Source of the DNA: an uncultured Paracoccus sp.
GTDB lineage: Bacteria > Pseudomonadota > Alphaproteobacteria > Rhodobacterales > Rhodobacteraceae
Length of the DNA stretch: 35,636 bases
Direction: 5' to 3'
Assembly: GCF_937873615.1 (NCBI RefSeq)
Contig: NZ_CALMYP010000061.1
Coordinates: forward strand, 1 to 35,636
Shown here: piece by piece, positions 6,126-25,581 of the stretch
How the letters are laid out: each line of letters starts with the position of its first letter
Position numbering within the stretch: the stretch's first letter is position 1
Position numbers and translations under genes: made by a program
The notes under the pieces: generated by a model
Told to the model about the DNA's origin: nothing
Database searches by the model: none
What the model saw: the letters and a program-made list of their open reading frames with translations, nothing else

Positions 6126-6142
6126 GCCAAAGGAGCACGGGC

Positions 6143-7150: not shown

Positions 7151-7157
7151 GGCGGCG

Positions 7158-7514: not shown

Positions 7515-8594
7515 ATGACCGTCACGATTTCGATGCCGGATGCCCTGCGGCAGTCCGTTGAGGCCGCCTCGGGCGGCGTGAACACCGTCCTTTACGACAG
7601 CAAGGGCTATCCCTCGATCATGTGCGTGGTGCCGCGCTTCAATATCGAGGACATCGACCCGGCGCTGGGGACCGGCACCCATCCCGCCTTCCTCGTCGGC
7701 GGCATCCAGAAGAGCGAGATTTTCGTGGGCAAGTATCTCGCCCGCATCCATGACAATCACGCCCTGTCGCTGCCCGGCCAAGACCCCAGCGCGTCGATCA
7801 ACTTCGACAACGCGAACGCACGCTGCTCGGCGAAGGGGCCGGGCTGGCACATGATGACCAATGCCGAATGGTCGGCGGTCGCCCTGTGGTGCTGGAAGAA
7901 CGGCTTCATGCCGCGCGGCAACACCAACTACGGCCGCGACCATGCGCAGACCTACGAGACCGGCCGCCGGCAGGATGGCCTTGCGCCCGGCCTCGCCGAA
8001 GGCACCGCGCGCACGCTGACCGGCTCCGGCCCGGTAAGCTGGTATCACGACAACACGCCGGCGGGCATCACCGACCTCTGCGGCAATGTCTGGGAATGGG
8101 TGCGCGGCATGCGCATGGTCAACGGCGAAATCCAGATCATTCCCGACAACAATGCGGCCGAGACGGACGCTGATCATAGCGCCGCAAGCCCGCTGTGGAA
8201 GGCGATCCTGCAGAACGGCAATCTGGTCAATCCCGGCACGGCGAACACGCTGAAGTGGAACGCAACCGGCGTCGACGGGGCCGGCAACCCGCAGCTTGCG
8301 ACCTCGGTGACGAGCCAGTCGAACGGCGAAACGGCTGCGAGCCAGTTGTATAAGGACTTGACCGCCGCCGGCGGCGTCACCGTCCCGAACATCCTCAAGG
8401 TGCTGGGCCTCTTCCCGCATGCGACCAGCATCGACCGCGGCTATCTTTACCTGCGGAATCTGGACGAGCGCCTGCCGATCCGTGGGGGCTACTGGTACAA
8501 CGGCGTCACTGCTGGGGTGTTCTCCCTCTACTTGAACATCGCCCGCTCGTCCCCGAGTTCGACTATCGGCTTCCGGCCCGCTTTCGTCCTCTGA
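7515..8594 (+). CDS. DGR1 variable protein (C-type-lectin/FGE-sulfatase fold, probable receptor binder)
   Basis: A 359-residue target protein of the first diversity-generating retroelement. GAGGAG at the end of the previous gene serves as its ribosome site. The central region has the formylglycine-generating-enzyme-like CLec signature (TDLCGNVWEWVRGM, residues about 190-203) and blocks such as GWHMMTNAEWSAVALWCW. The C-terminal residues about 318-356 are the variable repeat; only three residues follow before the stop. Trp, Gly and Phe-Arg-Pro scaffold positions are kept while residues at template AAY codons vary. By analogy with BPP-1 Mtd it should be a tail-tip protein that binds a host surface ligand. 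Located at the P2 H/G site of the late operon. Confidence 0.88.
   Translation: MTVTISMPDALRQSVEAASGGVNTVLYDSKGYPSIMCVVPRFNIEDIDPALGTGTHPAFLVGGIQKSEIFVGKYLARIHDNHALSLPGQDPSASINFDNANARCSAKGPGWHMMTNAEWSAVALWCWKNGFMPRGNTNYGRDHAQTYETGRRQDGLAPGLAEGTARTLTGSGPVSWYHDNTPAGITDLCGNVWEWVRGMRMVNGEIQIIPDNNAAETDADHSAASPLWKAILQNGNLVNPGTANTLKWNATGVDGAGNPQLATSVTSQSNGETAASQLYKDLTAAGGVTVPNILKVLGLFPHATSIDRGYLYLRNLDERLPIRGGYWYNGVTAGVFSLYLNIARSSPSSTIGFRPAFVL
8466..8582 (+). repeat. DGR1 variable repeat (VR1)
   Basis: A 117-bp copy of the template at 9027-9143, offset 561 bases. I count 10 mismatches, and every one is at a position where the template has A (to T or C). None occur at the other 93 positions. Template AAC/AAT codons have become Tyr, Thr, Ile and Ser codons. 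The 3' end (ATCGGCTTCCGGCCCGCT) is identical in both copies and is the likely initiation-of-mutagenic-homing region. Confidence 0.95.
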
Positions 8595-8617
8595 AATCTG
8601 GCCGCCTGACAATCTGC

Positions 8618-8639
8618 CGGGCGGGCGATAGCCCGTCCG
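8618..8639 (+). other. DGR1 target-site hairpin downstream of VR1
   Basis: A 9-bp GC-rich stem with one G-T wobble (8618-8626 with 8631-8639) around the loop GATA, 35 bases after the VR end. Phage DGRs are known to carry a hairpin/cruciform with a GRNA tetraloop downstream of the VR that aids target recognition. GATA fits GRNA. There is no T tract, so a terminator is less likely. Confidence 0.75.
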
Positions 8640-8670
8640 TCATCCACCTGTAATAGCTGCGGAGCCTGAT

Positions 8671-9018
8671 TTGGACGATCTGAAAATTCGTCGGAAGTGC
8701 GAAGACATGATCGCCTATGGATATGTGGTTTTAAGGCAGTTTCCCAAAGCCGAACGCCACGTTCTTAATCAGGAAATCCGCAGCACCATGTGGTCGCTTC
8801 TCCGACTGATCATCATCTGCAATCGGAGATACTTCAAAAAGACCACAATGCAGGACTTGGACGCCGAGCTTGATCTGTTGCGAAGCCAGATCAGGATTGC
8901 CCAGCGCCTCGGTTATCTGTCGTTCAACAGCTACGAAGTCTGGACCCGTCATCTGGACGAAATCGGGCGCATGATCGGCGGATGGTTCAAGAGCTTGCAG
9001 GAAAAGGGACGCGGGTAA
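8671..9018 (+). CDS. avd: DGR1 accessory variability determinant (Avd)
   Basis: A 115-residue, very basic, all-helical protein. Avd forms a pentameric four-helix-bundle ring that binds the DGR reverse transcriptase and the template RNA. Family marks are the N-terminal helix CEDMIAYGYVVLRQFPKAERHVL, helix 2 with RSTMWSLLRLIIICNR, DLDAELDLLRSQIRIAQRLGYL, and the C-terminal LDEIGRMIGGWFKSL. The start is TTG 8671 with GGAG six bases upstream; the first ATG (8708) would remove part of helix 1. It ends nine bases before the template repeat, the normal DGR arrangement. Confidence 0.9.
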   Translation: MDDLKIRRKCEDMIAYGYVVLRQFPKAERHVLNQEIRSTMWSLLRLIIICNRRYFKKTTMQDLDAELDLLRSQIRIAQRLGYLSFNSYEVWTRHLDEIGRMIGGWFKSLQEKGRG

Positions 9019-9026
9019 AGTGGTTT

Positions 9027-9143
9027 GAGCGCCTGCCGATCCGTGGGGGCAACTGGAACAACGGCGTCAATGCTGGGGTGTTCTCCCTCAACTTGAACAA
9101 CGCCCGCTCGAACACGAGTACGAATATCGGCTTCCGGCCCGCT
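9027..9143 (+). repeat. DGR1 template repeat (TR1)
   Basis: The invariant donor for mutagenic homing. It lies between avd and the RT gene on the same strand. It is enriched in AAC/AAT codons in register with the VR frame (24 adenines in 117 bp, 10 of them substituted in VR1). AAY codons give wide amino-acid change without creating stops. The template RNA probably continues into the 170-base spacer before the RT gene. Confidence 0.95.
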
Positions 9144-9313
9144 CTCGGGGAAAGTCAGAAGTTGGGGCCTCACGGGGCCTCATCCCGCACACCCTCGAAA
9201 GGCCCCGCGTTCCTCGGCCAAGCGCCGAAAAACATGAACAGACCGGAGCGTTGCAGTAACCGCCTGCGCGCGGCGACCCTTCGCTCCGGTCGCCCTTACG
9301 ATAGCGAGATGCC

Positions 9314-10420
9314 TTGGCGAAGACCTACACCGACCTGTTTTCGGGCCTGTCGAGTTTCGAGGCCCTACATCGCGCATGGGGCCGCGTCATTCGCGGGCGG
9401 CGGCATCAGACGGACGTCCTGCAATTCGAGCGGGATCTGGAATCGAACCTGATCGACATCCAGAACAGCCTCATATGGAAGACGTATCGCACCGGGCCGT
9501 ATTACCATTTCCGGGTCTTCGAGCCGAAGGAGCGCGAGATTGCCGCGCTTCCGCTCAAGGACCGCGTCGTGCAGCATGCGCTTATCGAGGCTATCGAGCC
9601 GATCTGGACGTGCCGGTTCATTTCCGACAGCTATGCGTGCCAGACCGGAAAAGGGATGCACGCCGGCGCTGACCGGGCGCAGACGTTCCTTCGGGCGACG
9701 CTGCGCGAGCATGGCGCCATCTATGTGCTGAAGGCGGACATCGCGCGCTTCTTTCCGAGCGTCTGCCACGATGCGCTCAAGAGGATGATCGCGCGCCGGG
9801 TGGCCTGCAAGGACACGCTCTGGCTGATCGACAGCATCATCGACAGCGTCGCCGAGCCGGGCGCCACGTTGCCGCGCGGGATACCGATCGGCAATCTGAC
9901 GTCGCAGATTTTCGCGAACATCTACCTCCATGAACTCGACGAGTTCGTGAAGCACGAACTGCGCGAACGGCGATATGTGCGCTACATGGATGATTTCGCG
10001 ATCATCGGCGCGGACAAGGAGCATCTGCACCGGGTCCGCGTCGCGGTCGACGACTTTCTCTATGCGCATCTCGGGCTGCGTCTCAACCGGAAGACTCAAG
10101 TCTTTCCGGTCTCGGCGACGAACGGCCGGGCGCTCGACTTCCTCGGCTATCGCATCTGGCCGACGCATCGGAAGATCAGGAAGGACAGCGCCGGACGGAT
10201 ACGCCGGAAAATGAAGCGCATGGCGCGCCAGTATCACGAGGGCAAGATCACCCTCGACCAGGTCCGGCAGGTCGTGATGAGTTGGGTCGGTCACGCCGGT
10301 CACGCGAGCACTTACACGCTGCGCAGCCGAATCCTCGGCGACGCGGTCTTCATTCCCCCGCCTTCGGGGTCGTCCGCTTCTCGCCGCAGGAAGGCGAAGG
10401 ACGGCGAACCCTCGGCCTAA
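9314..10420 (+). CDS. DGR1 reverse transcriptase
   Basis: A 368-residue RT that copies the TR RNA with adenine-specific infidelity. The catalytic motif YMDD is near residue 224. Motif A reads KADIARFF (residues about 140-147). The DGR-type motif 4 is PIGNLTSQIFANIYL, with the SQ characteristic of DGR RTs rather than group II intron or retron RTs. The thumb region ends near GHAGHAS. The C-terminus has a basic Ser/Arg/Lys tail. The start is TTG 9314 (no better ATG upstream). Directly followed by the tail sheath gene, so it is embedded in the late operon. Confidence 0.95.
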   Translation: MAKTYTDLFSGLSSFEALHRAWGRVIRGRRHQTDVLQFERDLESNLIDIQNSLIWKTYRTGPYYHFRVFEPKEREIAALPLKDRVVQHALIEAIEPIWTCRFISDSYACQTGKGMHAGADRAQTFLRATLREHGAIYVLKADIARFFPSVCHDALKRMIARRVACKDTLWLIDSIIDSVAEPGATLPRGIPIGNLTSQIFANIYLHELDEFVKHELRERRYVRYMDDFAIIGADKEHLHRVRVAVDDFLYAHLGLRLNRKTQVFPVSATNGRALDFLGYRIWPTHRKIRKDSAGRIRRKMKRMARQYHEGKITLDQVRQVVMSWVGHAGHASTYTLRSRILGDAVFIPPPSGSSASRRRKAKDGEPSA

Positions 10421-10470
10421 ACCACAACCACCGCCAGCCGGCCCTCGGGCCATACAGAAAGGAGAGCCAG

Positions 10471-11901
10471 ATGGCTTCTGTATCCTTCCACCACGGCACG
10501 CGCGTCTTTCAGAGCGCGGAGACGCCGGTTCTTGTCCGCCTTGCCCAGACGGCCGTCATCGGCCTGATCGGCACGGCTCCCGATGCCGACGCCGTGAAGT
10601 TCCCGCTCAACAAGCCGATCCAGATCCTGCGCCCGCAGGACGCGGAAGGTCTCGGCGCCGAGGGAACGCTGGCCGACGCGATCGACAGCATCTTCGATCA
10701 GGTCGGTTGCCCGATCATCCTCGTGCGTATCGAGGACGAGCCGACGCTGCCGGAAATCTGGTCGAACGCGGTCGGCAACCAGATCGCCTTCAGCGGCGTT
10801 CACGCCTTCCGGCGCGCTTCGTCGGACGGCCTCTACAAGCCGAAGCTGCTGATTGCGCCCGGCCTTACCCAGACGTCGCCGGCGGACGGCATCGCCTCGG
10901 TGAACGTGACGGTCGCCGGCGCGGGCTACGACGCGGACAGCACGACGGTCACGATCACCGGGACCGGCGGCACCGGGGCCGAGGCCCGCGCGATCGTCGA
11001 GGGCGGCGCGATCACGAGCATCGTGGTCACGAAGCCCGGCTTCGGCTACACCGGAACCGTCACCGTCACCATCGCCGGCGCAGGCACCGGGGCCACCGCC
11101 ACCGCCAACAAGGGGTCGGTGATCAACCCGGTCGTCGCCGAACTGATGAGCGTGGCCGAGGGCCTGAAGGCGATGGCCTATATCGACGGGCCGGACACGA
11201 CCGATCAGGCCGCGGTGCAGTATCGCGGGCTGATCAATTCGGGCCGCATCTTCATCTGCGACCCGAAGGTGCTCAAGTGGGACACCGAGGATTCGGTCTA
11301 TGTCCCGAAGCCCTCCTCGCCGGTCTGGGCTGCGCGGCAGGCGCGGATGGACCTCGAACAAGGGTTCTGGTGGGCCGGATCGAACGTCGAGATCGCCGGA
11401 ATTGGCGGCGTGAATCGGCCGATCGAATACGGCGCACAGGCCAACTACCTCAACGAGAACCGGGTCAACACGATCGTCAACATCGACAATACCGGCTTCC
11501 GTCTCTGGGGCGTCTGGACCTGCGACAGCGACCTCATCTGGCAGTTCGTGTCGGTGCGCCGCACGGCCGACGCGATCAACGAGGCGCTCGAAAAGGCTTA
11601 CCTCGAATTCGTCGACCGCCCGTTCTCGAAGGCGAACCTCAAGTTCATGATCGAAAGCGGCAGGGCCTTCCTGCGGACGATGGAACTTGAGGGCGCGATC
11701 CTGCCGGGTTCCGACGTCTGGCTGCTCGACAGCAACACCGACGTCGAGATGGCGCAGGGCATCGTGAAGCTCGGCGTGAAGTTCGAGCCGCCGGCGCCGA
11801 TGGTCGACATCCGCATCACGTCGCACCGCAATCTCGTCGCCTACACGCTCCTGCTCAACCAGGTCGCGCAGGAGATCGGGGCCGGCTCGCTGGCGGCCTG
11901 A
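10471..11901 (+). CDS. Tail sheath protein (P2 FI-like) with inserted domain
   Basis: The contractile sheath subunit. ATG 10471 with AGAAAGGAG upstream gives 476 residues; P2 FI has 396. The N-terminus SFHHGTRVFQ and the block TAVIGLIGTAPDA are typical, as are the C-terminal segments FVDRPFSKANLKFMIESGRA and LVAYTLLLNQ. The extra length is an insertion at residues about 141-215 made of a Gly/Thr/Val-rich beta repeat (TVTITGTGGTGAEA, TVTVTIAGAGTGATA with GxGY turns), probably a decoration on the sheath exterior. Follows DGR1, precedes the tube. Confidence 0.93.
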   Translation: MASVSFHHGTRVFQSAETPVLVRLAQTAVIGLIGTAPDADAVKFPLNKPIQILRPQDAEGLGAEGTLADAIDSIFDQVGCPIILVRIEDEPTLPEIWSNAVGNQIAFSGVHAFRRASSDGLYKPKLLIAPGLTQTSPADGIASVNVTVAGAGYDADSTTVTITGTGGTGAEARAIVEGGAITSIVVTKPGFGYTGTVTVTIAGAGTGATATANKGSVINPVVAELMSVAEGLKAMAYIDGPDTTDQAAVQYRGLINSGRIFICDPKVLKWDTEDSVYVPKPSSPVWAARQARMDLEQGFWWAGSNVEIAGIGGVNRPIEYGAQANYLNENRVNTIVNIDNTGFRLWGVWTCDSDLIWQFVSVRRTADAINEALEKAYLEFVDRPFSKANLKFMIESGRAFLRTMELEGAILPGSDVWLLDSNTDVEMAQGIVKLGVKFEPPAPMVDIRITSHRNLVAYTLLLNQVAQEIGAGSLAA

Positions 11902-11968
11902 CGACGGCTAGACACGGCGGCGTTACCGCGCCGCCGTCCACCCTCACAAAGACAGAAGGAAAACGGCC

Positions 11969-12475
11969 ATGTCCGACATGCCGCGCTATATCCTGCGCAA
12001 TTGCACCATCTTCGCCGACCGGGTTTCCAAGCTCGGGCAGGCGAGCGAGATTTCCCTCCCCGTGCCGACCGAGAAGCTGGAAGAGCTTCGCAATGCCGGC
12101 ATGGTGCTGCCGATCGACATCCCCATGGGATACGAGAAGCTCGAAGCGTCGTTCAAGCTGACGGCCTTCGACCCGCAGGTGATCACCCTCTTCGGCCTCG
12201 CCGTTGGCGTGGAGAAGGAATTCATGGTCACGGGGGCGCTGGTCCACGAGGACGGCACCATCATCAACGCGACCGCCTATATCCGCGGCCGCCTGATGAA
12301 GAACGACCACGGCGATTGGAAGCCCGGCGAGATCGGCGAGAACGAATTCTCGATCACGCTGCGCTACTACCGCCTCGAGGTCGAGGGCCGGACGCTGATC
12401 GAGGCCGATCCCTTCAGCGTCTCGATCGGCGGCGCATCGCAGACCGGCGGCATCCGCGCCGCGCTGCTCGTTTAA
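11969..12475 (+). CDS. Major tail tube protein (P2 FII-like)
   Basis: Forms the inner tube of the contractile tail. The 168-residue length is usual for FII. The sequence MPRYILRNCTIFADRVSKLGQASEISLP and the later IRGRLMKNDHGDWKPGEIGENEF are strongly family-like. AGAAGGAAAACGGCC precedes ATG 11969. It sits between sheath and gpE exactly as in P2. The 67-base gap after the sheath gene contains no visible promoter or terminator. Confidence 0.93.
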   Translation: MSDMPRYILRNCTIFADRVSKLGQASEISLPVPTEKLEELRNAGMVLPIDIPMGYEKLEASFKLTAFDPQVITLFGLAVGVEKEFMVTGALVHEDGTIINATAYIRGRLMKNDHGDWKPGEIGENEFSITLRYYRLEVEGRTLIEADPFSVSIGGASQTGGIRAALLV

Positions 12476-12487
12476 GGGGAAGATTCC

Positions 12488-12802
12488 ATGTCGGACAAGA
12501 AGACCATCACGTTCACGCTGGAAGCCCCCGTCGAACATGACGGCCAGACCTACACGACGCTCACGCTTCGCAAGATGAAGGCGAAGGATCTGGTCGCGGC
12601 CGACCTGGTCAACGGCAACCTCCGCAAGTCCCTCGCCATCTTCGCTTCCATGGCCGGCGTGCCGATCATGGTCATGGAAGAGCTGGACACCGACGACTTC
12701 AACCGGCTGGGGCGTGAGGCTGCGCCCCTCATGGGAAAGTTGGCGGTCAAGGCCATGGCGAAGCTGGAGCGGGAAGAAGCGGGGAACCTTCCTCTGCAAT
12801 AG
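12488..12802 (+). CDS. Tail assembly protein gpE (0-frame product)
   Basis: A 104-residue tail assembly chaperone of the P2 gpE type (TFTLEAPVEHDGQTYTTLTLRKMKAKDL at the N-terminus, close to the family pattern). P2 makes gpE and, by -1 frameshifting, gpE+E'. Here the canonical slippery heptamer GGGAAAG lies in frame as G GGA AAG at codons 83-84 (12733-12739). The short form ends at 12802. The ratio of short and long forms should control tape-measure coating and tail assembly. Confidence 0.88.
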   Translation: MSDKKTITFTLEAPVEHDGQTYTTLTLRKMKAKDLVAADLVNGNLRKSLAIFASMAGVPIMVMEELDTDDFNRLGREAAPLMGKLAVKAMAKLEREEAGNLPLQ

Positions 12803-12945
12803 ATGCGGTCGCCACACTCGCCCGCCATCTTCACACCCCGATCAGCGAGATCGAGGAGATGGATTGGGACCGCTTCGATGCCTATACGGCGGCGCTGGGG
12901 CGCGTGCTGAAAGCTGAAAGCCCGAGAAAGGGAAAGGGCCGGTGA
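12488..12945 (+). CDS. Tail assembly fusion gpE+E' made by -1 frameshift
   Basis: Predicted join of 12488-12739 with 12739-12945 in the -1 frame, 152 residues (P2 E+E' is 142). The -1 frame is blocked by a stop at 12715 just upstream of the heptamer and is open from there to TGA 12943. It encodes VATLARHLHTPISEIEEMDW then DRFDAY, which matches the P2 gpE' (GpE family) pattern. It has no ATG before residue MDWDRF, so independent initiation would lose most of the domain. The slippery sequence is the one used in lambda gpG-GT. Confidence 0.8.
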
Positions 12946-12963
12946 TCACATCTCCGGCCCTTT
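12933..12963 (+). terminator. Bidirectional intrinsic terminator after gpE'
   Basis: A perfect 10-bp stem (AAAGGGCCGG at 12933-12942, CCGGCCCTTT at 12954-12963) with an 11-nt loop. T-rich ends occur on both strands. It overlaps the gpE' stop codon and lies five bases from the stop of the reverse-strand yccF gene, so it can end transcription from both sides. Confidence 0.75.
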
Positions 12964-12967
12964 TCGA

Positions 12968-13438
12968 TCATGCACCCCGATAGGCTGCGAGCTTCTCCGC
13001 CGCGTTCGTTTCGCGCGCTGCGCGTGCGAGTTCGACGGAAACAACTCGCCGGCCGACCGGCCATAAGGCGATGCCGGCGAGCTTGAACGATTGCAGCCCG
13101 AAGGGGATGCCGATGATCGTCAGGCAGTTGAAGATGCCGGCGATCAGGTGGGCGAGGAAAAGAACCACGCCAAAGGTCAGCGCCCAAATAATATTGAAGA
13201 TGAAACCGACCGTTCCTGTAACGGCGGTCGTTGCCGTAAGCCCTTTATTATCAAGTTCGCGAATGTGAACGACGTCCTTCCCGAAAGGAAAGGCGGACAT
13301 TTTCGCGATCTCGAAAGCAGATCGGCTAAGTGGAATTCCGACTATTGACAGAGCGAATACTGCGCCGCCGATCAACCAGATCAGCGCCGTTATTGCCCCG
13401 CCAAAGACAAACCATATCGCGTTCCCTGCGTATCGCAT
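12968..13438 (-). CDS. yccF: YccF-family inner membrane protein (cargo gene)
   Basis: A 156-residue membrane protein with two YccF domains. It has hydrophobic segments near residues 7-32 (IWFVFGGAITALIWLIGGA) and 75-110 (FIFNIIWALTFGVVLFLAHL) and the repeated motif IxGIPxxxxxFxxAxxxxxPxG (VGIPLSRSAFEIAKMSAFPFG and IGIPFGLQSFKLAGIALWPVG), characteristic of the family. It is the only reverse-strand gene in the 21-kb late region and splits gpE' from the tape measure. It looks less GC-rich than its neighbours and is closed by a bidirectional terminator. This is the signature of a moron, perhaps expressed in the lysogen. Molecular function of YccF is not known. Confidence 0.9.
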   Translation of the reverse strand: MRYAGNAIWFVFGGAITALIWLIGGAVFALSIVGIPLSRSAFEIAKMSAFPFGKDVVHIRELDNKGLTATTAVTGTVGFIFNIIWALTFGVVLFLAHLIAGIFNCLTIIGIPFGLQSFKLAGIALWPVGRRVVSVELARAARETNAAEKLAAYRGA

Positions 13439-13473
13439 GATTAATCCCCCGCTCCGAAGTGGTGTCTAGCCGA

Positions 13474-17531: not shown

Positions 17532-17749
17532 CGGCCATGGTGACGCGCTACATCACGAAGCACGGCGAGATGATCGACTCCATCTGCAGCCGCTTCTACG
17601 GCGACGAAAGCGGCTTCGTCGAGCAGGTGCTCGTCGCGAATCCGGGCCTCGCCGGCCTTTCGGTCCCGCTGCCGCCCGGCACCGAGGTCATGCTCCCGGC
17701 GATTCCGAAGTCGGCCGAGACGATCAAGCTCATCACCCTGTGGGACTAA
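17528..17749 (+). CDS. Tail protein X (gpX-like, LysM-type)
   Basis: A 73-residue LysM-like protein. It has the pattern YITKHGEMIDSICSRFYG, then EQVLVANPGLAGL and LPPGTEVMLP, the single LysM module of P2 gpX. It probably locates at the baseplate/tail tip and may touch peptidoglycan. GTG 17528 overlaps the gpU stop; ATG 17537 is a possible alternative start that removes three residues. Confidence 0.9.
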   Translation: MTAMVTRYITKHGEMIDSICSRFYGDESGFVEQVLVANPGLAGLSVPLPPGTEVMLPAIPKSAETIKLITLWD

Positions 17750-17760
17750 AGGAGATCGAA

Positions 17761-17928
17761 ATGATCAAGATCGGCATCCCCGTCCGCTATCGCGACGGGG
17801 CAAACCACCTGCGCACGGGCGTCGTCGACGCCTCCTCGATCGCGTCGGGCCGCCGCTTGTGGCGCGTTTCGGACAGGTGGTTCGAGGGTCGCGACCTCGT
17901 CGTGATCGACCCGGCAGCCATGCCGTGA
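17761..17928 (+). CDS. Small hypothetical protein between gpX and gpD
   Basis: A 55-residue protein with an excellent AAAGGAG site before ATG 17761. Basic and soluble, with no recognised motif (MIKIGIPVRYRDGANHLRTG). The stop overlaps the gpD GTG (GTGA), so it is translationally coupled to the baseplate hub gene. Function unknown. Confidence 0.55.
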   Translation: MIKIGIPVRYRDGANHLRTGVVDASSIASGRRLWRVSDRWFEGRDLVVIDPAAMP

Positions 17929-18893: not shown

Positions 18894-19011
18894 CCTTCCT
18901 CATATTCCGCAGCCCCGCGCCGCGAATTTGCCGCCCCGCCTGACGGGGCCACCGCTCGCCAACAATCGAAAACACGAACCGCCCGACGTCTGTCGGGGGG
19001 AAGGAGATGCT

Positions 19012-19716
19012 ATGTCCTTTGAAGCATGGCTTCAGGGCCGCCTTGTCGCGCATGGGTACAAGATCGCCGTGGACGGGGCGATCGGCGGGGAAACGACCCG
19101 CGCCCTGATCGCGTTCCAGCGCCAGAAGAAAATCAGGCAGACCGGGGTAGCCGATGCCGCCACCGTCGCCGCCCTGCGCGCCGAGCCAGGCAAGCCCAAG
19201 GCCGACACGCCCGAGCCGCCGGCCGAAACCCTTCCGCCATGGATGGCCGAGGCGCAGCGCCGCATGGGCCTGCATGAGCGCCGCGACAACGCGCTGCTCG
19301 CCGCCTTCCTGAAACTGGGGAAATATCTCGGCGACCCGGCGAAACTGCCGTGGTGCGGCGACTTCGTCGAAACCTGCATCGTCAAGACGCTGCCCGGCGC
19401 CGTGGTGCCGAACAATCCGTTCTGGGCGCAGGGGTGGAAGGATTTCGGCATTGACGCCGGCGGCCCCAAGGTCGGGTCGGTGGGCGTGATCCGGTGGAGC
19501 GCGTCGTCCGGCCATGTCGGCTTCGTTGCGGCTTATGACGCGGAGCGCCGCCGCGTTCTTCTGCTCGGCGGAAACCAGAGCGACAGCGTCAACCTCACAT
19601 GGTTTCCGCTCGACAAGTTCATCGCCTTCCGCTGGCCCGAGGTCTATCCGATCCGGGCCTTTCCGCCGCTCACGGGCGGGGCCTATTCGGCCGGCACCGC
19701 GGCGGGAACGCGATAA
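19012..19716 (+). CDS. Endolysin: peptidoglycan-binding domain plus CHAP/NlpC-type peptidase (TIGR02594-like)
   Basis: A 234-residue cell-wall hydrolase. Residues 1-60 are a PG_binding_1 domain (LVAHGYKIAVDGAIGGETTRALIAFQ). Residues about 85-215 form a cysteine peptidase/amidase domain with KLPWCGDFVETCI (candidate catalytic Cys), SGHVGFVAAYD (His) and LLGGNQSDSVN, the pattern of the TIGR02594 phage family. AAGGAG lies six bases before ATG 19012. There is no signal peptide, so export needs a holin. A short hairpin (18982-18997) lies just upstream of the ribosome site. Opens the lysis module. Confidence 0.88.
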   Translation: MSFEAWLQGRLVAHGYKIAVDGAIGGETTRALIAFQRQKKIRQTGVADAATVAALRAEPGKPKADTPEPPAETLPPWMAEAQRRMGLHERRDNALLAAFLKLGKYLGDPAKLPWCGDFVETCIVKTLPGAVVPNNPFWAQGWKDFGIDAGGPKVGSVGVIRWSASSGHVGFVAAYDAERRRVLLLGGNQSDSVNLTWFPLDKFIAFRWPEVYPIRAFPPLTGGAYSAGTAAGTR

Positions 19717-20060
19717 TGGCGGCGCGCGGCGTTCTCCGAACGGCCGAGGGTGGCCGGCTCATGTTCTGGTGTCCCGGCTGCGACGGCGCGCACCAGGTGC
19801 AGGTCGGCGTCGGGCCGGGGCCGCGCTGGGGCTTCAACGGCGATTATGACCGGCCGACGTTCACGCCGTCCGTTCTCGTGCGCGGCTCGCACCCCATCAC
19901 GGACGACGAGCGCCGCCGCATCATGGCCGGCGAGACAATCGAGCCGACGCCGACCGTCTGCCACTCCTTCGTGCGCGACGGACAGATCCAGTTCCTCGGC
20001 GACTGCACGCACGAGCTCGCCGGCCGAACCGTGCCCCTGAAACCCTTCGACGAGGCTTGA
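19716..20060 (+). CDS. DUF6527-like phage protein
   Basis: A 114-residue protein starting in a TAATG overlap with the endolysin stop. It has a CxxC pair (FWCPGCDGAHQV) and the segments WGFNGDYDRPTFTPSVLV, CHSFVRDGQIQFLGDCTHEL and AGRTVPL. These recur in a family of phage lysis-region proteins of unknown function, often annotated DUF6527 (older records wrongly call it ammonia monooxygenase). Cys and His residues suggest metal binding. No signal or membrane segment. Confidence 0.72.
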   Translation: MAARGVLRTAEGGRLMFWCPGCDGAHQVQVGVGPGPRWGFNGDYDRPTFTPSVLVRGSHPITDDERRRIMAGETIEPTPTVCHSFVRDGQIQFLGDCTHELAGRTVPLKPFDEA

Positions 20061-20061
20061 T

Positions 20062-20364
20062 ATGCGCCCATCTTGGAAAGTCCGCCGCCGGATCGTCGTT
20101 GCTGCCCTCGGCTTCTGTGCGGGCTGCATCGTCTATCTGATGATTTACGGGCAGGCCGACAGTCGCCTTCACGAGACGATCGCCTATGGCCTTTTCGGCA
20201 CGGCGATCTCGGTGATCGGCTCCTACGTCTTCGGTGCGGCGTGGGACGACAAGAACGTGATGAAGACCCTCGGGCGGGACGCCTATCGCGACCGGCCGGG
20301 CGTCCCCGATGGCTGGCCGTCCGACATCGCACCGCCAGCCGACGACGACGGGAGGGCAGGATGA
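20062..20364 (+). CDS. Small membrane protein, holin candidate
   Basis: A 100-residue protein with a basic N-terminus (MRPSWKVRRRI) and two hydrophobic helices at about 10-28 (VVAALGFCAGCIVYLMIYG) and 40-58 (AYGLFGTAISVIGSYVFGAA), ending in a charged tail. This fits a class II holin. It lies between the endolysin block and the spanins, where a holin is expected. The family is not certain. Confidence 0.6.
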   Translation: MRPSWKVRRRIVVAALGFCAGCIVYLMIYGQADSRLHETIAYGLFGTAISVIGSYVFGAAWDDKNVMKTLGRDAYRDRPGVPDGWPSDIAPPADDDGRAG

Positions 20365-20762
20365 TCACCGCTATCGCTCGCTTCACCGGAATCCCGACCC
20401 TCCTCGTCTGGGCGGCACTGATCGCGATCGCGGCCGGCGGCGTTTGGGCATGGGGAAGCTACCAGCACCACGCCGGCGTCCGCGAGGGCCGGGCGATCGA
20501 GCGCGCCGCATGGGAGAAGGCGATGCGCGATCTGCGCGAGCAGATGGACGCCGAGCGCCGGCAGGCGCAGGAGCGAATCGACAGGATTGAACAGGATTAC
20601 CTCGAAGGCCGGAAGCGCGACGCCGTGCTGATCGCCGACCTCGAAGCGGCAATCGTCCAGATGGAGACCGAAGATGCGGAAGATGACAACGCCGCTGGCC
20701 CTGTGTGCCGGCCTGCTATTCCTCGCGGGCTGTCAAAGCAGCTTGACGCGATCGGTCGCTGA
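20361..20762 (+). CDS. i-spanin (Rz-like)
   Basis: A 133-residue inner-membrane spanin subunit. It has one N-terminal membrane anchor (residues about 10-30, LLVWAALIAIAAGGVWAWG) and a long periplasmic coiled coil (residues 45-110, AAWEKAMRDLREQMDAERR and onwards). ATG 20361 overlaps the previous stop (ATGA). The o-spanin gene lies inside its 3' part in another frame, the classic Rz/Rz1 arrangement. It fuses inner and outer membranes at the end of lysis. Confidence 0.85.
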   Translation: MITAIARFTGIPTLLVWAALIAIAAGGVWAWGSYQHHAGVREGRAIERAAWEKAMRDLREQMDAERRQAQERIDRIEQDYLEGRKRDAVLIADLEAAIVQMETEDAEDDNAAGPVCRPAIPRGLSKQLDAIGR

Positions 20763-20958
20763 TCGGCCGGAACTGGCGCGCATACCCTCGCCCCTCAAGG
20801 AGCCATGCGCGGCCGTGACGAACCTGCCCGAGCGCGATCTGTCCTCGGCGGAGGTCGCCCGACTCTGGGGCGCGGATCGCTCGGCGCTGGGCGAGTGCGG
20901 CCGGCGGCATCGCGCCCTCGTCGACGGCGTCGCGGCGATCGAGGGGCAAGGCCGTTGA
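20674..20958 (+). CDS. o-spanin lipoprotein (Rz1-like), overlapping the i-spanin gene
   Basis: A 94-residue outer-membrane lipoprotein. The signal peptide MRKMTTPLALCAGLLFLAGC ends in a lipobox (LAGC, lipidated Cys 20). The mature part has several Pro residues and three further Cys. It begins 88 bases before the end of the i-spanin gene in the +1-shifted frame and extends about 200 bases past it, so it is overlapping rather than fully nested. It should pair with the i-spanin to span the periplasm. Confidence 0.85.
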   Translation: MRKMTTPLALCAGLLFLAGCQSSLTRSVADRPELARIPSPLKEPCAAVTNLPERDLSSAEVARLWGADRSALGECGRRHRALVDGVAAIEGQGR

Positions 20959-21026
20959 GGCTGGAATTCTGGACGATGTGGGCTTTGATCGCGGCGGCCT
21001 TCGCCGTGATCGTTCTGCTTTCATAG
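20955..21026 (+). CDS. Very small single-span membrane peptide
   Basis: A 23-codon frame beginning TTG 20955 (TTGA overlap with the o-spanin stop), or ATG 20976. It encodes a short basic/acidic start followed by one hydrophobic helix (MWALIAAAFAVIVLLS). It fills the gap before the next gene. Small lysis regulators look like this, but a peptide this short could be chance. Confidence 0.35.
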   Translation: MRLEFWTMWALIAAAFAVIVLLS

Positions 21027-21039
21027 AGAGGGGCGCATT

Positions 21040-21396
21040 GTGCCGACGAGCTTGAACGAAATATACAAGGCGATCGGCTCCCTGCAGTCGGACGTGAAGA
21101 ACCTCACCCGTCTTATAGAGGCGCAGGACCAGCGGTCGTCCGAGAGTCGCCGGCGCGTCTATGATCGGCTCGACGAACTGGGGAACGTCGTCGACAACAT
21201 AGAGGATCGCCTCAAGGCATCCGAGCAGGTGATCAAGGACATCGAGCCGCTTGCCCGCGACTTTGGTGCCGTGAGAGATAAGTCGAAGACGGTCCTTGCC
21301 GTGATCATTGCGGGCTGGACGCTCCTCGGCGGCTTCCTGATGTGGATCGGAAACAGCGTTCTGGAATGGGCGATCCAGCGCATCAGCGGGTCTTAA
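21040..21396 (+). CDS. DUF1515-like coiled-coil/membrane protein, possible holin
   Basis: A 118-residue protein with GTG 21040 after GAGAGGGG. Residues about 5-80 are helical and charged (SLQSDVKNLTRLIEAQDQR, DELGNVVDNIEDRLKASEQV), typical coiled coil. Residues about 85-108 form one membrane helix (VLAVIIAGWTLLGGFLMWIG). Similar DUF1515-type proteins occur in Rhizobium phages at the end of the lysis cassette. It may be a holin, antiholin or membrane adaptor. Last gene of the rightward unit. Confidence 0.65.
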   Translation: MPTSLNEIYKAIGSLQSDVKNLTRLIEAQDQRSSESRRRVYDRLDELGNVVDNIEDRLKASEQVIKDIEPLARDFGAVRDKSKTVLAVIIAGWTLLGGFLMWIGNSVLEWAIQRISGS

Positions 21397-21515
21397 TGGT
21401 GGGGCGGCCGGGCTAAAAAACCTTGAAGATCAGTAGAAAGAGAATGTCCCACCGGCTTTTTAGCCGCTTGATTTTCCGGGAAAATGGCGGTCCTCTTCTG
21501 GGCACCATCCGTTTC
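21397..21515. other. Candidate attP region between lysis genes and integrase
   Basis: A 119-base non-coding gap between two convergent units, clearly more AT-rich than its surroundings. It contains the inverted repeat GGCTAAAAA (21411-21419)/TTTTTAGCC (21457-21465), the small palindrome GGCTTTTTAGCC (21454-21465) and a 15-base palindrome ATTTTCCGGGAAAAT (21471-21485). The location beside int suggests the phage attachment site; some repeats could also act as converging terminators. No att core can be proved without the host junction. Confidence 0.45.
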
Positions 21516-22667
21516 TTATGTATTTGATTTTATTGCCTTTTTGGCGATTTTTGTCCCACTTTCCAGCAACCCTTTTTGCGGTGGGACAGTTTCGTCCGTT
21601 TTTTGTTCTGGCACGAGTTTGCGAATCGCCTCGCCCGCAAGGCGCTTTCGATCCGCCTTCTTCGTGTAGAGCGTGGTTTGCTTCTTCGTCGTCCAGCCGA
21701 AGATTGCCATAAGCTGACTATCAGTCGCCCCATTGTCGGCGGCGATGGTCGCGCCCGCCTTTCTCAATCCGTGCATCGAGCACTGGGGCAAGCCGGCCTG
21801 ATCGCACCATTGGCGCATCTTGTTGCCGAGGCCGTTCACCGTGAACGGACGGCCGAGGTCGGTGATAAGGAACGTCAGGTCTCCGGTCTCGGTAGCCTCG
21901 ATCGTCGCCTGAAGTTCGGCCAGCACGGGAATCTCCACAACGACGCCAGATGATTTCCCGGTCTTTCCGGGGCGCACATAAAGCCATCCGTCGCGGATAT
22001 GCTGCTTGCCCAAGGTCGCAAGATCGGACAGGCGCAGGCCGGTAAAGAGGCCGAGATGCAGCGCGAGCCGGGCCTTGCTCCCCTGCGGATGCCGCTCCTC
22101 GTATTGCCTCACCTCGTCGACGGTCCATGCGTGGAAACCGTCGCCGGAGTGAAGGTGCTCGATCCCGATCGCGGGATTGCGGTCGGCAAGGCCGACGCTG
22201 ATCGCCCATCCGAACATGGCGGAAACGGTCTTCACCACGTTATTCTGCGCGCCTGCGGTATCGCGAATCGTGTCCCGAATTTCGAGGACGTGCTTGCGCT
22301 CCATCAGCTTATAGGGGAGATCGCCCCGGCGCTTCTTTCCGCTTTCGCATATTTCCTCGAGGAGACGAACGCGCCGCGCAAGCTGGTCAGGGTTGAGCCT
22401 ATTCTTCGCCCGCTGCTTGTATTGCTGGACGAGCCAGTGAAAGCTATTTTCCTTGGCCGCCGCGCCGGGCTTTCGCGGCGCGGGCGCGGTCTTCTTCTCG
22501 TAGGGGATTCCGATTCGGGCGCAGGCGACCTCATCGTCAAACGCTTTCGTTCCGGGTTGCTCCCGAAGCCTGATCTTCGGACGGCCGGGCGCGCGGAAGT
22601 AGAGCCGGACATTCTTGTGCCGGTCCCGATCGACTGTAACTCCCTTGGGTAGCTTCTTAGGCATCAT
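21516..22667 (-). CDS. int: Tyrosine integrase
   Basis: A 383-residue site-specific recombinase. Catalytic motifs: FTGLRLSDLATL (Arg I), MHGLRKAGATIAADNG (HxxR) and TTLYTKKADRKRL (nucleophile Tyr), with FGWTTKK before it. The core-binding SAM-like domain spans about residues 90-180 (FHWLVQQYKQRAKNR) and the N-terminal arm-binding part precedes it. Start at 22667 (tandem ATG); the longer frame to 22751 overlaps the upstream gene. It is the last gene of the leftward unit and overlaps the end of the AlpA-like gene. Confidence 0.92.
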   Translation of the reverse strand: MMPKKLPKGVTVDRDRHKNVRLYFRAPGRPKIRLREQPGTKAFDDEVACARIGIPYEKKTAPAPRKPGAAAKENSFHWLVQQYKQRAKNRLNPDQLARRVRLLEEICESGKKRRGDLPYKLMERKHVLEIRDTIRDTAGAQNNVVKTVSAMFGWAISVGLADRNPAIGIEHLHSGDGFHAWTVDEVRQYEERHPQGSKARLALHLGLFTGLRLSDLATLGKQHIRDGWLYVRPGKTGKSSGVVVEIPVLAELQATIEATETGDLTFLITDLGRPFTVNGLGNKMRQWCDQAGLPQCSMHGLRKAGATIAADNGATDSQLMAIFGWTTKKQTTLYTKKADRKRLAGEAIRKLVPEQKTDETVPPQKGLLESGTKIAKKAIKSNT

Positions 22668-22917
22668 CCCAAGGATTCCCTTCCCCGGCGGCAACGTCAA
22701 CAGCTTGCGATCGGTGAGGCAGATTCCGGAAGGCGGCGGCCACCTCGGCAACGTCCCACACCCGGCGGCCGTAGATCATTCTCGCATCGGGCATGAGGCC
22801 GTCGAAGACCAGTCGGTCGAAGAGCGTCGCACTCACGCCGATCAGGGCGGCGGCCTGCTCTCGGTTGATTCCTACGGGTGCCAGGTTCTCGGGCAGAATT
22901 GCGGTTGCTCGCCTCAT
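22657..22917 (-). CDS. AlpA-like / excisionase-type DNA-binding protein
   Basis: An 86-residue protein with a winged-HTH of the AlpA/MerR-excisionase type: GINREQAAALIGVSATLFDR, LVFDGLMPDARMIYGRRVW, DVAEVAAAF. ATGA overlap with the DGR2 RT stop and 11-base overlap with the integrase start. Position directly upstream of int points to an excisionase/directionality factor, although AlpA-type proteins can also be transcriptional regulators. Confidence 0.75.
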   Translation of the reverse strand: MRRATAILPENLAPVGINREQAAALIGVSATLFDRLVFDGLMPDARMIYGRRVWDVAEVAAAFRNLPHRSQAVDVAAGEGNPWDDA

Positions 22918-23909
22918 GGCTTGCCCCTCCCGCCTGCCAGATTCAGACTCTCAAGCAGGTTGTGGCTGTCGGCCCATGACGCATGGCCGGTCCACGCCGC
23001 AAGGAACTGATCGAGCCGCTCGTGCTCGCCGGCGGCCCGATAGGCCCTGATCTTCCGCCGGGCGCGCACGACGCTGTCCCTGCGCAGGAGCTTGTGCGTC
23101 GTCCAGATGCGATAGCCGACGAAGTTGACGCCCCGGCCGGCGGGCTGGATGCTCCACTTCGAGAACCGCAGCCCCAGCCGATCCCGCGACAGATCCTCGA
23201 TCGACCCGCGCACCCTGCGCAGATGGTCGGACGAGCGGCCGAGGACGACGATGTCGTCCATGTAACGGAACCAATGCCGCTCGCCGAGCGTCTGCTGAAG
23301 GTGGCGGTCGACCACCCCGCCATACACATTCGCGAAAATCTGCGAGACGAGATTGCCGATCGGCAACCCTATCCCCTCTCGCGGGAGCATCGTTTCGATA
23401 AGCCGCAGGGTGCCGCGGCAGGAAATCTTGGCTTCGATAAGCCGCCAGAGCGCGCCGTGCTCGATGCTGGCGAAATAGGCCGAGAAGTCGGTCTTGAGGA
23501 CGTAGAGCGGCCCGCTGCGCGCCAGCCGGCGCATGTCGGCCTGCAATGCCGTCGCGGCCGCGTGAGTGCCCTTGCCGCGCCGGCAGGCATAGGTTCTCGG
23601 AAGAAGGGTCGCCTCGAAAATCGGGCCGATCACCGCGCATAGTGCATGCTGCGCCACGCGGTCCTCGAACGGCAGCGCCGAGATCAGGCGCACCTTCGGG
23701 TCGAAGATTCGGAACTGGCGCGGAGCGCCCGGCCGATAGGGCCCGTCGCGCATGGCCGAGGCGAGCTCGTGAAGATTGAGGATCGAGAACTCCTTGAACT
23801 CAAGGAAGCCCGGCGTGAGCCGCTTCCCGAGCGACGTCAGCCGGAAGGCCCGCCGCATGTTCGCGTCGGACGTGATGATGCTGATGAGGTTACGATGCTT
23901 CTTTCCCAT
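22914..23909 (-). CDS. DGR2 reverse transcriptase
   Basis: A 331-residue RT homologous to the DGR1 enzyme but clearly diverged. Motif A is KTDFSAYFASI, motif 4 is LPIGNLVSQIFANVYG with the DGR-type SQ, and the catalytic box is RYMDDIVVLG. The thumb ends GHASWADSHN. Shared segments with RT1 include LP-x-x-DRV-x-QHAL and TYAC-x-x-GKG-x-HA. The start ATG 23909 (MGKKHRN) is chosen. The open frame continues upstream to 24515 only by reading through TR2 and avd2 in another frame. Co-directional with avd2, TR2 and the variable protein. Confidence 0.95.
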   Translation of the reverse strand: MGKKHRNLISIITSDANMRRAFRLTSLGKRLTPGFLEFKEFSILNLHELASAMRDGPYRPGAPRQFRIFDPKVRLISALPFEDRVAQHALCAVIGPIFEATLLPRTYACRRGKGTHAAATALQADMRRLARSGPLYVLKTDFSAYFASIEHGALWRLIEAKISCRGTLRLIETMLPREGIGLPIGNLVSQIFANVYGGVVDRHLQQTLGERHWFRYMDDIVVLGRSSDHLRRVRGSIEDLSRDRLGLRFSKWSIQPAGRGVNFVGYRIWTTHKLLRRDSVVRARRKIRAYRAAGEHERLDQFLAAWTGHASWADSHNLLESLNLAGGRGKP

Positions 23910-24101
23910 GATCTGAATACCCGCCTGCCGGTCGCGGGTTTCGACGGCTGGGCCGCTACTCCCCGCTTCACCGGACCCTGCTATGTGTTCGCCGAAGCCG
24001 GACAGTCGGGCCGACCACCCTGGCACGGCCCGCATGAATACGGCCGCGCCGGTGGAAGATTGCCGGCGCGGCCGTGACCGTCGCCGAGCTATGAAAGGGT
24101 C

Positions 24102-24220
24102 GTCGCCGCCGCCGCGCGCCGAGAGATTCTCGTTCGAATTCTCCGGCCAGTTGCCCAGATTCGCGTAGCGCGAGCCGGCGTTGTCGCCGTTGATCCACGA
24201 ACCCCCGATGATGGACGGGC
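24102..24220 (-). repeat. DGR2 template repeat (TR2)
   Basis: A 119-bp donor on the minus strand, nine bases after the avd2 stop and 192 bases before the RT start. It holds 22 adenines on the minus strand, mostly in AAC/AAT codons in register with the VR frame (INGDNAGSRYANLGNWPENS-type reading). The 3' end is the GC-only stretch reading GGCGCGCGGCGGCGGCGAC, followed by one mismatch; this is the likely homing-initiation end. Confidence 0.95.
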
Positions 24221-24229
24221 ACCGCAACG

Positions 24230-24607
24230 TCATACCCCCGACCGCCCGTTGCCCTTCGCGGTCTTGATCCATTGCCCGAGCATCGCCCCCGTCTCCGCGA
24301 TGGTGCGGAGCGCCACGGCATGCTGCCGAGGCGTGACGATTTTCAGCGCCGGATCGGCCGCGAAACGCAACCAGAACCGCAGCGTCGCCATGTGAGCGTC
24401 CGCCGCGTAGAGACGGGAAGGCTGCTTGCTCTTCGCCGCCTGATAGAGAAGGCCGACCTGATCGAACAGCAATCCGATCAGCCGGTCGCGCAGCGCGCCA
24501 TGGCGGCGCGGGCATCGCTGGAGGATCGGATAGAGATAGGTCACGACGGCCTCATATTTTTCGACGATCGCCAGGTCTTGAGCTTGCACAAATTCGTCGC
24601 GTGTCAT
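24230..24607 (-). CDS. avd: DGR2 accessory variability determinant (Avd)
   Basis: A 125-residue, all-helical, basic protein of the Avd/four-helix-bundle type: IVEKYEAVVTYLYPILQRCP in helix 1, HGALRDRLIGLLFDQVGLLY in helix 2, HMATLRFWLRFAAD in helix 3, and TIAETGAMLGQWIKT in helix 4. Only distantly similar to the DGR1 Avd, so the two are not a recent duplication. It lies between the variable protein and TR2, as in DGR1. Expected to bridge RT2 and TR2 RNA. Confidence 0.88.
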   Translation of the reverse strand: MTRDEFVQAQDLAIVEKYEAVVTYLYPILQRCPRRHGALRDRLIGLLFDQVGLLYQAAKSKQPSRLYAADAHMATLRFWLRFAADPALKIVTPRQHAVALRTIAETGAMLGQWIKTAKGNGRSGV

Positions 24608-24632
24608 GGCTGGCGATCGTCCGTTTCACTCG

Positions 24633-24652
24633 GCCCGCGCTTCCGCGCGGGC
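24633..24652 (-). other. DGR2 target-site hairpin downstream of VR2
   Basis: A perfect 8-bp stem (GCCCGCGC/GCGCGGGC) closing the loop GGAA on the minus strand, beginning 17 bases after the VR2 end and touching the stop codon of the variable protein. GGAA fits the GRNA tetraloop described for phage DGR target hairpins. There is no T tract after it. Confidence 0.8.
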
Positions 24653-25581
24653 TATGCAGGATTCAGGTGGTCGCCGCCGCCGCGCGCCGAGAGATTCTCG
24701 TACGAATGCACCGGCCAGAAGCCCAGGCGCGCGAAGCGCGAGCCGGCGTCGACGCCGACGAACCACGCACCCCCGAGGATGGACGGGCGAGGCTCGTCGG
24801 GATCGCCATCCGTGGCCCATTGCCAGACGGTCCCGGTGATGTCGAAGACGCCGCGCTGGCTGATGAACCGCTCGGCGCCGTCCTTGAGGACGCCGGTCAC
24901 GACCGGGTCGCCATCGCGCGAGCATCGCTCCTGCACGCCGAAGCCGGCGGCGAAGAACTCTTCGACCGTGAGGAGGCGCTTGCCGTGATAGGCGAGGAGT
25001 TCGACGGCGGCGGCATAGTCGAACCGCTTGAAGCGCGTCTTGCCGTCCGGGCGCATGGGAAGGTCGCGGCCGTCCGCGATCGTCGCCCCGCAGCGGCTCG
25101 TGCCGTGCTCATGGTGATCGACGCCGGGGAGATAGATGTCCACCCATGCCTTGCGGCCGCCGGCGAGCTCGATCATCGTCATGCCGCGCGGGTCCGGTCC
25201 CGCGAAGCGGAAGTCCGCGTCCCAGAGCGAGAAGGGATTGATCGACGGGGTCGTGTCGCCGCCGGCGCGGGCCTGCGCGCAGCCGCCGGGCGCGAAATGG
25301 AAGCCGGCGAACCATCTGTCCCCGAGAGGGTTCGACGCAACCGGCTCGGCGAAGGGCTTGCCCTCCCCGTCGATGGAGACGCCGTAGTCGCGGCCGGGCG
25401 TCAGATCGCCGAGGCCGACCGGCGTGTCGGCGTCGAAGGCATGCGTGCGGCCCTCGATCTGGATCACCGTGCCGGCCCTGATGCCGATTTCCGTCCGGCT
25501 GGGCGCAAAGAGAATCGGCGCAGCCAGGTCGGCCCGGTCAATGGTCATGGGGGAAGTCTTCACTGCAGTAGCAATGTTCAT
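24652..25581 (-). CDS. DGR2 variable protein (C-type-lectin/FGE-like fold)
   Basis: A 309-residue target protein. The C-terminal half is CLec/FGE-like: KRLLTVEEFFAAGFGVQERC, FDITGTVWQWATDG, then the variable repeat at residues about 265-304 (GGAW core, AGSRF, ending ENLSARGGGD). Only five residues follow. The N-terminal half is beta-rich (GTVIQIEGRTHAFDAD, DYGVSIDGEGKPF) and recalls other DGR target proteins. No signal peptide or membrane helix. Its ATG overlaps the upstream gene (ATGA), so it is translated as part of the leftward early operon. That is unusual for a virion receptor binder. Its ligand is unknown. Confidence 0.88.
   Translation of the reverse strand: MNIATAVKTSPMTIDRADLAAPILFAPSRTEIGIRAGTVIQIEGRTHAFDADTPVGLGDLTPGRDYGVSIDGEGKPFAEPVASNPLGDRWFAGFHFAPGGCAQARAGGDTTPSINPFSLWDADFRFAGPDPRGMTMIELAGGRKAWVDIYLPGVDHHEHGTSRCGATIADGRDLPMRPDGKTRFKRFDYAAAVELLAYHGKRLLTVEEFFAAGFGVQERCSRDGDPVVTGVLKDGAERFISQRGVFDITGTVWQWATDGDPDEPRPSILGGAWFVGVDAGSRFARLGFWPVHSYENLSARGGGDHLNPA
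24670..24788 (-). repeat. DGR2 variable repeat (VR2)
   Basis: A 119-bp copy of TR2, offset 568 bases. On the minus strand I count 16 mismatches. Fourteen are at template adenines (to T, C or G) out of 22 adenines; two are at template T (T to G in a Ser/Ala codon, T to C at the third base of a changed AAT codon). The distal GAGAAT adenines near the 3' end are unchanged, as expected close to the homing-initiation end. Confidence 0.95.

Follow-up and report, generated by a model that had tools for sequence, protein, structure and literature searches.

Two diversity-generating retroelements in a Paracoccus phage

The window analyzed here comprises positions 1-35636 of contig C61 in the host assembly of an uncultured Paracoccus sp. 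(G000; 3.86 Mb, 74 contigs), a stretch of ~36 kb that makes up much of the genome of a temperate myophage. It carries two diversity-generating retroelements (DGRs), each with a gene for a variable protein (VP) that contains a variable region (VR), an Avd gene, a template repeat (TR), and a gene for a reverse transcriptase (RT). An earlier note on this DNA had claimed two complete DGRs on opposite strands, and we found both cassettes, DGR1 in the tail module (7515-10420, plus strand) and DGR2 in the early/replication module (25581-22914, minus strand), with positions 7515 and 25581 being the start codons of the variable-protein genes.

DGR1 and the block ahead of it
5676..7508, plus strand: open reading frame (ORF) 5676-6125, tail fibre 6131-7150 (tail-fibre PHROGs), small protein 7158-7508
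7515..8594, plus strand: VP1, DGR1 variable protein, FGE-type C-type lectin, TaqVP homologue (FGE-sulfatase, E 1.7e-7)
8466..8586, plus strand: VR1, 121 nt, 91% to TR1
8618..8639, plus strand: hairpin/cruciform after VR1, 9-bp stem including one G-T pair, GATA loop
8671..9018, plus strand: Avd1, start uncertain (bAvd, E 1.3e-31)
9027..9147, plus strand: TR1, 121 nt
9314..10420, plus strand: RT1 (RVT_1); nearest named relative the RT of Vibrio phage VP58.5, 49%

DGR2 and the gene before it
25578..25790, minus strand: gene before VP2, its TGA stop overlapping the VP2 ATG (ATGA); homologues in loci L033 and L034
24652..25581, minus strand: VP2, Mtd-like variable protein without the N-terminal region of Mtd (mtd_2nd, E 3e-7)
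24666..24788, minus strand: VR2, 123 nt, 86% to TR2
24634..24651, minus strand: hairpin/cruciform after VR2, 7-bp stem, GGAA loop
24230..24607, minus strand: Avd2 (bAvd, E 6.6e-26), 48% to BPP-1 Avd
24098..24220, minus strand: TR2, 123 nt
22914..23900, minus strand: RT2 (RVT_1), BPP-1 Brt type (54%)

Each cassette has a DGR-type RT, an Avd, an adenine-biased TR/VR pair, and, behind the stop codon of the VP gene, a hairpin with a GRNA loop. Both RTs carry YMDD and IGN..SQ, and YMDD and GN..SQ are marks of DGR-type RTs. The TR/VR mismatches lie at TR adenines in 10 of 11 cases for DGR1 (Fisher p 1.5e-7) and in 14 of 17 for DGR2 (Fisher p 4.5e-10). In phage BPP-1, hairpins with 7-10 bp stems and 4-nt GRNA loops are described as needed for efficient homing (PMC3240598). 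The hairpin of the VR1 type recurs in 8 DGR1-type loci among the matches listed, and it is identical there in three. A repeat search of the window returned the two VR/TR families plus one short 73% pair, and the genome contains two RVT_1 matches, both of them the window RTs, and likewise two bAvd matches. A further long hairpin between TR2 and RT2 (24042-24073; 11-bp stem by eye) is possibly part of the TR RNA.

The earlier note had also proposed a late-plus-early placement, and the gene content bears this out, with DGR1 in the tail module and DGR2 among replication genes. The genes up to 21.4 kb run mostly rightward and encode head, baseplate, sheath, tape-measure, and lysozyme functions (Phage_cap_E, Baseplate_J, Phage_sheath_1, and PhageMin_Tail in Pfam, to which PHROGs adds tail and lysozyme families). 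From 35 to 21.5 kb the genes run mostly leftward; they include SSB, DUF2303, beta-clamp, and DUF5131 genes, followed by VP2-Avd2-TR2-RT2, the small regulator, and the tyrosine integrase gene.

DGR1 lies between the tail-fibre block and the sheath gene, and its target is of the SUMF1 type. Vibrio phage VP58.5 (Vhmlvirus) has the same order, i.e. tail fibre, SUMF1-type variable protein, Avd, RT, and tail sheath, with Avd1 at 50% and with one RT place. VP1 matches TaqVP (PDB 5VF4), from a DGR of a Thermus aquaticus prophage (PMC6328139), along its full length (phmmer E 5e-112, residues 5-359); host and phage differ, and the relevant parts of that paper mention no second DGR in the prophage.

DGR2 lies among the replication genes, adjoining xis-int, and resembles the BPP-1 system (mtd-avd-TR-brt; PMC3240598) in gene order, in the VR at the 3' end, and in the GRNA-loop hairpin after it. 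VP2 residues 16-306 correspond to Mtd 59-378 (phmmer E 1e-44; 35%), so the second domain and the C-type lectin domain are homologous. The systems differ in that BPP-1 has one RT place and in that its mtd follows the tail-fibre gene bbp9 in a structural cassette, whereas the VP2 gene sits in a replication-module neighbourhood and the protein lacks the N-terminal region: the alignment begins at Mtd 59, and the MtdN profile matches nothing in the window. VP2 has no hydrophobic N-terminus, and its AlphaFold model (23 sequences) reached a mean pLDDT of 56.5, with residues 235-309 below 50. The ATGA overlap suggests that VP2 is probably translationally coupled to the preceding gene, for which we found no match in PHROGs.

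Origin and integrity of the dual arrangement

The two DGRs are far apart in sequence. As the earlier note had stated, the RTs share the DGR motifs and are clearly diverged (38% identity), the Avds are only remotely similar (26%), and the TRs are unrelated (best ungapped match, 0.54); VP1 and VP2 share only a 12-residue match. We built a tree of 89 RTs (105 collected, of which 16 identical ones were removed, two short ones having been dropped beforehand and L097 left unused), in which several long branches were flagged, RT1 and RT2 not among them. RT1 groups with the copy in a twin prophage described below, L085-L087, L005, and L007 (support 100/99), beside the VP58.5 group with modest support (87/83). 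RT2 falls in a 57-row clade with BPP-1 Brt (100/100) and, within it, in a 42-row clade (100/98).

The conservation of the neighbouring genes points to module exchange. The block 5676-10420 is 57-89% conserved (43-66% for 7158-7508) in loci L085, L086, L142, and L144, where the 5676-7508 part alone is at 57-72% (again 43-66% for 7158-7508) and is kept with VP1-Avd1-RT1; the other tail genes of these loci are 25-42% identical to those of the window. No second RT or Avd was found in the four records, that of L086 being a 10.8-kb fragment. Genomes G412 and G406, each with one RT, share the early module with DGR2 at 35-84% conservation. On these comparisons, the ORFs in 5676-7508 travel with DGR1 between phage backbones, and the phage combines, as a mosaic, a tail block that bears DGR1 with an early module that bears DGR2.

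Genome contigs were scanned with VP2 in a search that reaches close relatives only, and a single locus was obtained, at 94% identity, in the MAG Notoacmeibacter sp. MAG_40 (the twin). Positions 12668-34174 of its contig C99 correspond to window 1-21511 (94.6% over 21,517 columns) and carry DGR1. Its contig C103 corresponds to window 35636 to 21490 and carries DGR2, in pieces at 88.8-95.6% DNA identity, the window stretches near 25.8-26.3, 26.8-27.4, and 34.6-35.3 kb being missing or weak. The twin genome has two bAvd matches, one on each of these contigs. The att site of the window was located as follows.

21490..21508, no strand: attP core, differing at one position from the core found at both ends of the twin prophage (tRNA-Leu CAG)

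On C103 the integrase side abuts tRNA-Leu(CAG). On C99 the same 3'-tRNA core recurs after the late end, with host-like genes (flagellar by eye) beyond it; from this layout the twin looks like an integrated prophage. No phage adjoins the best tRNA-Leu match in G000. Given this and the intact att junction in the window, the window phage is probably unintegrated, tandem prophages elsewhere being the alternative. A contig from a third source, L214 (IMGVR_UViG_3300010221_000021), crosses the att junction, matching window 22167-19936 at 94%. The whole DGR1-DGR2 interval is thus covered by independent contigs, namely the twin halves and L214. Elsewhere L214 is rearranged, with the VP2-Avd2 segment duplicated and RT2 missing, and represents either a decaying phage or an assembly artefact.

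The comparison with the twin also suggests recent activity. The two phages differ at 2 of the 121 positions of TR1 and at 5 of the 123 of TR2, whereas VR1 and VR2 show 19 differing sites each. The TR/VR mismatches of the twin itself lie at A in 12 of 13 cases (DGR1) and 11 of 12 (DGR2). All of the TR substitutions (7/7) are present in the twin's own VRs; at these seven sites, the window VRs have the window base at five and are mutated at the other two, both TR adenines. On the simplest reading, each TR was copied into its own VR after the window and the twin split. Since the TRs are stable, the VRs changed, and the TR changes carried by the twin VRs, we infer that both DGRs have homed since the divergence, presumably by mutagenic retrohoming in vivo.

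These data bear on three other explanations of the pair. A recent duplication of one DGR followed by divergence would account for the order VP-Avd-TR-RT that is common to both, each on its own strand; however, the RTs, the Avds, and the unrelated TRs and VP bodies speak against it, and because RT1 and RT2 fall in different well-supported clades the pair is, provided the tree holds, not a duplication, as the earlier note had maintained, leaving this explanation a negligible probability. That two phages with one DGR each were joined in the assembly to give a chimeric window might be suggested by two terminase/portal variants in G000, on contigs C60 and C48, which are 97.5% identical, but the twin repeats both halves and L214 spans the join. 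This idea is largely refuted, and mis-assembly, which the earlier note had named as a finding that would refute its claim, is very unlikely on the contig evidence. Rather less improbable, though still unlikely, is that a single RT/Avd pair works on both templates, the other pair being a passenger. A GRNA-loop hairpin is found at both VRs, so target hairpins alone would not separate the DGRs; against a passenger, the frames of both RTs and both Avds are intact, each VR has altered since the window and the twin parted, and neither TR resembles the VR of the other DGR (0.48, 0.49). Independent operation of the two DGRs is most likely, on these sequence comparisons. As for C60 (L201) and C48 (L202), they are versions of the terminase/portal region of the window phage and reflect either two variants or a strain mixture.

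Surveying relatives, we found bAvd in 4 of 394 genomes of the family, 2 of 390 of the order, and 18 of 385 of the class (G000 included each time), and G000 is the only one with two matches above the cut-off; G813 has two matches and G916 three, on different contigs, with one above the cut-off in each case. With RT1 or RT2 we found 90 viral loci, and the records of 50 were searched for a second RT or Avd: each had one RVT_1 and none had two, and 47 had an Avd, none with two complete ones. Among 31 further records, found with the VP2 family, 24 had one RVT_1 and 7 had none. The search for paired DGRs in phages and prophages that the earlier note had proposed therefore gave 0 of 81 related viral records with two RTs, many of these records being fragments and those nearest the window possibly being left out. 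RT1 itself occurs at 172 places in 171 phage records, so that one record has two, with one place each among the matches listed, and at E 1e-20 at 87 places in 87 records. From this survey, the dual arrangement is known here from one lineage, that of the window and the twin.

The earlier note was aware of no described dual-DGR phage, and we found none in the available text of the open-access literature searched (subscription papers and preprints lay outside the search). An analysis of over 30,000 DGRs (PMC8144416) nowhere uses, in its main text, the terms two DGRs, multiple DGRs, or more than one. Phages nd4 and nd12, with their tentaclins, likewise have two hypermutated proteins per phage, but these are described as two targets of one DGR with one TR (PMC10743442). 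At least two DGRs per genome are reported for Bacteroides sp. 1_1_14, cyanobacteria, and DUSEL4 nanoarchaea (PMC3521204, PMC8867640, and PMC4372165), with different RT clusters in Bacteroides and apparent independence in cyanobacteria; these are cellular genomes rather than one phage, and in DUSEL4 the RTs resemble duplicates derived from a single source.

The DGR2 clade and the possible roles of the two systems

The DGR2 clade is the 42-row RT clade above, with the late-type locus L055 as its sister (100/99). Its target, where found, is an Mtd-like protein of ~300 aa. The beta-prism of Mtd spans approximately residues 5-48. We aligned 36 early-clade VPs (VP2 and 35 ORFs, only ORFs of 280-330 aa being given), and 36/36 have 3-15 residues over Mtd 1-48. 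The late-type L055 and L069 have 36 and 38, with totals of 197 and 121 residues in that region. Mtd 1-58, searched over 82 sequences, matched only BPP-1, L078, and L080. The Mtd beta-prism, which presumably attaches Mtd to the tail fibre (PMC10743442), is therefore not recognisable in the long N-termini of L055 and L069. In L078 (6262-6495) and L080 (2885-3112), the N-terminal sequence of Mtd forms a separate small gene upstream of the variable protein (67-70% identity).

The mtd-like gene of L055 lies between baseplate and sheath genes. The neighbours in the early clade are a processivity factor, integrase, RusA, primase, helicase, methyltransferase, HNH, and unknown families, with no structural family in the best 25 of 87 and the best 25 of 51 families. 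These scans covered 119 (80 + 39) proteins from 28 loci, out of ~182 listed ORFs; the remainder were the ORFs on the minus strand, several of the short ones on the plus strand, and everything in L014, L019, and L055. Across the clade, TR/VR mismatches number 723 at 1497 A sites and 63 at 6444 non-A sites (64 VRs in 43 loci passing the filter, some loci being near-duplicates and targets outside the filter uncounted). Hairpins follow 53 of 97 VP-like ORFs (some spurious), as against 1.95 expected in shuffles, and 51 of the 53 loops are GRNA. One TR has two Mtd-like targets in 21 of 45 DGR2-clade loci (L008-L054, L058, L079; script filter), and the window has one.

Two relatives have enzyme domains fused in frame to the Mtd-like protein: a deoxyribosyltransferase domain in L009 (6838-8259; PHROGs, E 4e-56) and a MazG-like domain in L020 (7024-8232; PHROGs, E 1e-6), the latter recurring in contig L224. 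Both fused proteins have an adenine-mutated VR. Within 20 codons of the Mtd-like start, L009 has no ATG, GTG, or TTG, and L020 has two GTG/TTG and no ATG. The L009 and L020 types are alone among 184 close Mtd-like ORFs (118 partly redundant loci) in having a long open extension without a nearby ATG, so the fusions are rare. Ten long early-type ORFs, among them those of L009 and L020, gave no N-terminal domain in Pfam.

We consider it very probable that a temperate myophage acquired two complete, separately evolved DGRs by module exchange. Within this explanation, DGR1 would be expressed late and would vary the adsorption tip of the virion, and a virion adsorption protein is its most likely target. 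DGR2 would be transcribed with the leftward early operon, given the overlap of the VP2 start with the preceding stop, and its mutagenesis would then occur at another stage than that of DGR1; like the earlier note, we infer that the two lie in different regulons. VP2, without the N-terminal region of Mtd, would either dock to the virion by another route or work as a soluble binding protein, within or at the infected cell or the lysogen, and a soluble, non-virion role seems slightly more likely than receptor binding on the virion. Tentatively, a widespread phage clade may have moved an Mtd-type DGR from the tail to the early operon and dropped the tail-anchor region, so as to diversify an intracellular early protein, e.g. 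a binder of variable host or rival-phage targets, with fusions to a nucleotide-metabolism enzyme domain in two relatives and with the window phage keeping a classical tail DGR too.

It is also quite possible, if somewhat short of probable, that both DGRs diversify receptor-binding proteins of one virion, with VP1 and VP2 at different fibres, VP2 docking via its short N-terminus, and the early position of DGR2 a matter of genome history. Such a role for VP2 fits its match to Mtd 59-378 with the second domain kept, its placement by PHROGs in the tail family phrog_11262, and the viral DGR targets of clades 1, 4, and 6, which PMC8144416 describes as mostly annotated tail proteins. It fits less well with the 3-15 residues over Mtd 1-48 in all 36 early-clade VPs aligned, the absence of structural families among the best-ranked neighbours, the overlap of the VP2 ATG with the stop of an early-module gene, and the two fusions to MazG-like and deoxyribosyltransferase domains.

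Several points weigh against the reading of DGR2 as an early system with a non-virion target, and against parts of the wider explanation. The Mtd homology and the PHROG tail label of VP2 argue for the virion. Late-type relatives such as L055 have long N-termini that are themselves not recognisably those of Mtd. The enzyme fusions belong to two relatives, VP2 itself being unfused, and PHROGs gives no enzyme domain in ten other long early-type ORFs, whose long N-termini we take for over-extended frames. The roles, the timing of expression, and the homing of both DGRs are read from sequence. Two close phage variants may be mixed in the host assembly, given C60 and C48. Finally, an empty-site comparison does not tie the two contigs of the twin to one prophage: against relatives, none of them close, the left flank and tRNA-Leu of the joined host flanks match and the adjoining right flank does not, and no conserved order emerged when the right flank was compared by tblastx with G1093, G1094, and G000.

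Phage DGRs are read as tools altering what the tail binds. A phage with two unrelated DGRs that both show signs of recent use, in the tail and the early module, makes testable the diversification of non-virion proteins, the insulation of two RT/Avd/TR sets within one cell, and operon-timed mutagenesis, and the window-twin pair already serves as a natural experiment in which one genome holds two TR/VR clocks. If the proposed roles are true, the phage would fight on two fronts, with one hypermutation system for the outside of the cell and another for its interior.

Other features of the phage genome

The structural, integration, and replication genes around the two cassettes are as follows.

10474..11901, plus strand: tail sheath, the structural gene after DGR1, in the order of VP58.5 (Phage_sheath_1, E 5e-13)
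21516..22751, minus strand: tyrosine integrase (Phage_integrase, E 5.5e-16)
22657..22917, minus strand: small regulator or probable excisionase (phrog_25900, E 4e-10; phrog_66, E 1.5e-4)
28950..30104, minus strand: phage-encoded DNA polymerase III beta clamp, in the replication module that lies upstream of DGR2 (DNA_pol3_beta domains, E 9e-27)
31846..32367, minus strand: single-strand binding protein (SSB), replication module (SSB, E 1.6e-34)

ARAGORN found no tRNA genes in the window. The ORF at 30101-31066 looks RecT-like by eye, but Pfam gives DUF2303. The DUF5131 protein (26685-27773) is 49% identical to that of the twin, versus 90-96% in the flanking DNA; this divergence amid near-identical flanks suggests a recent swap.

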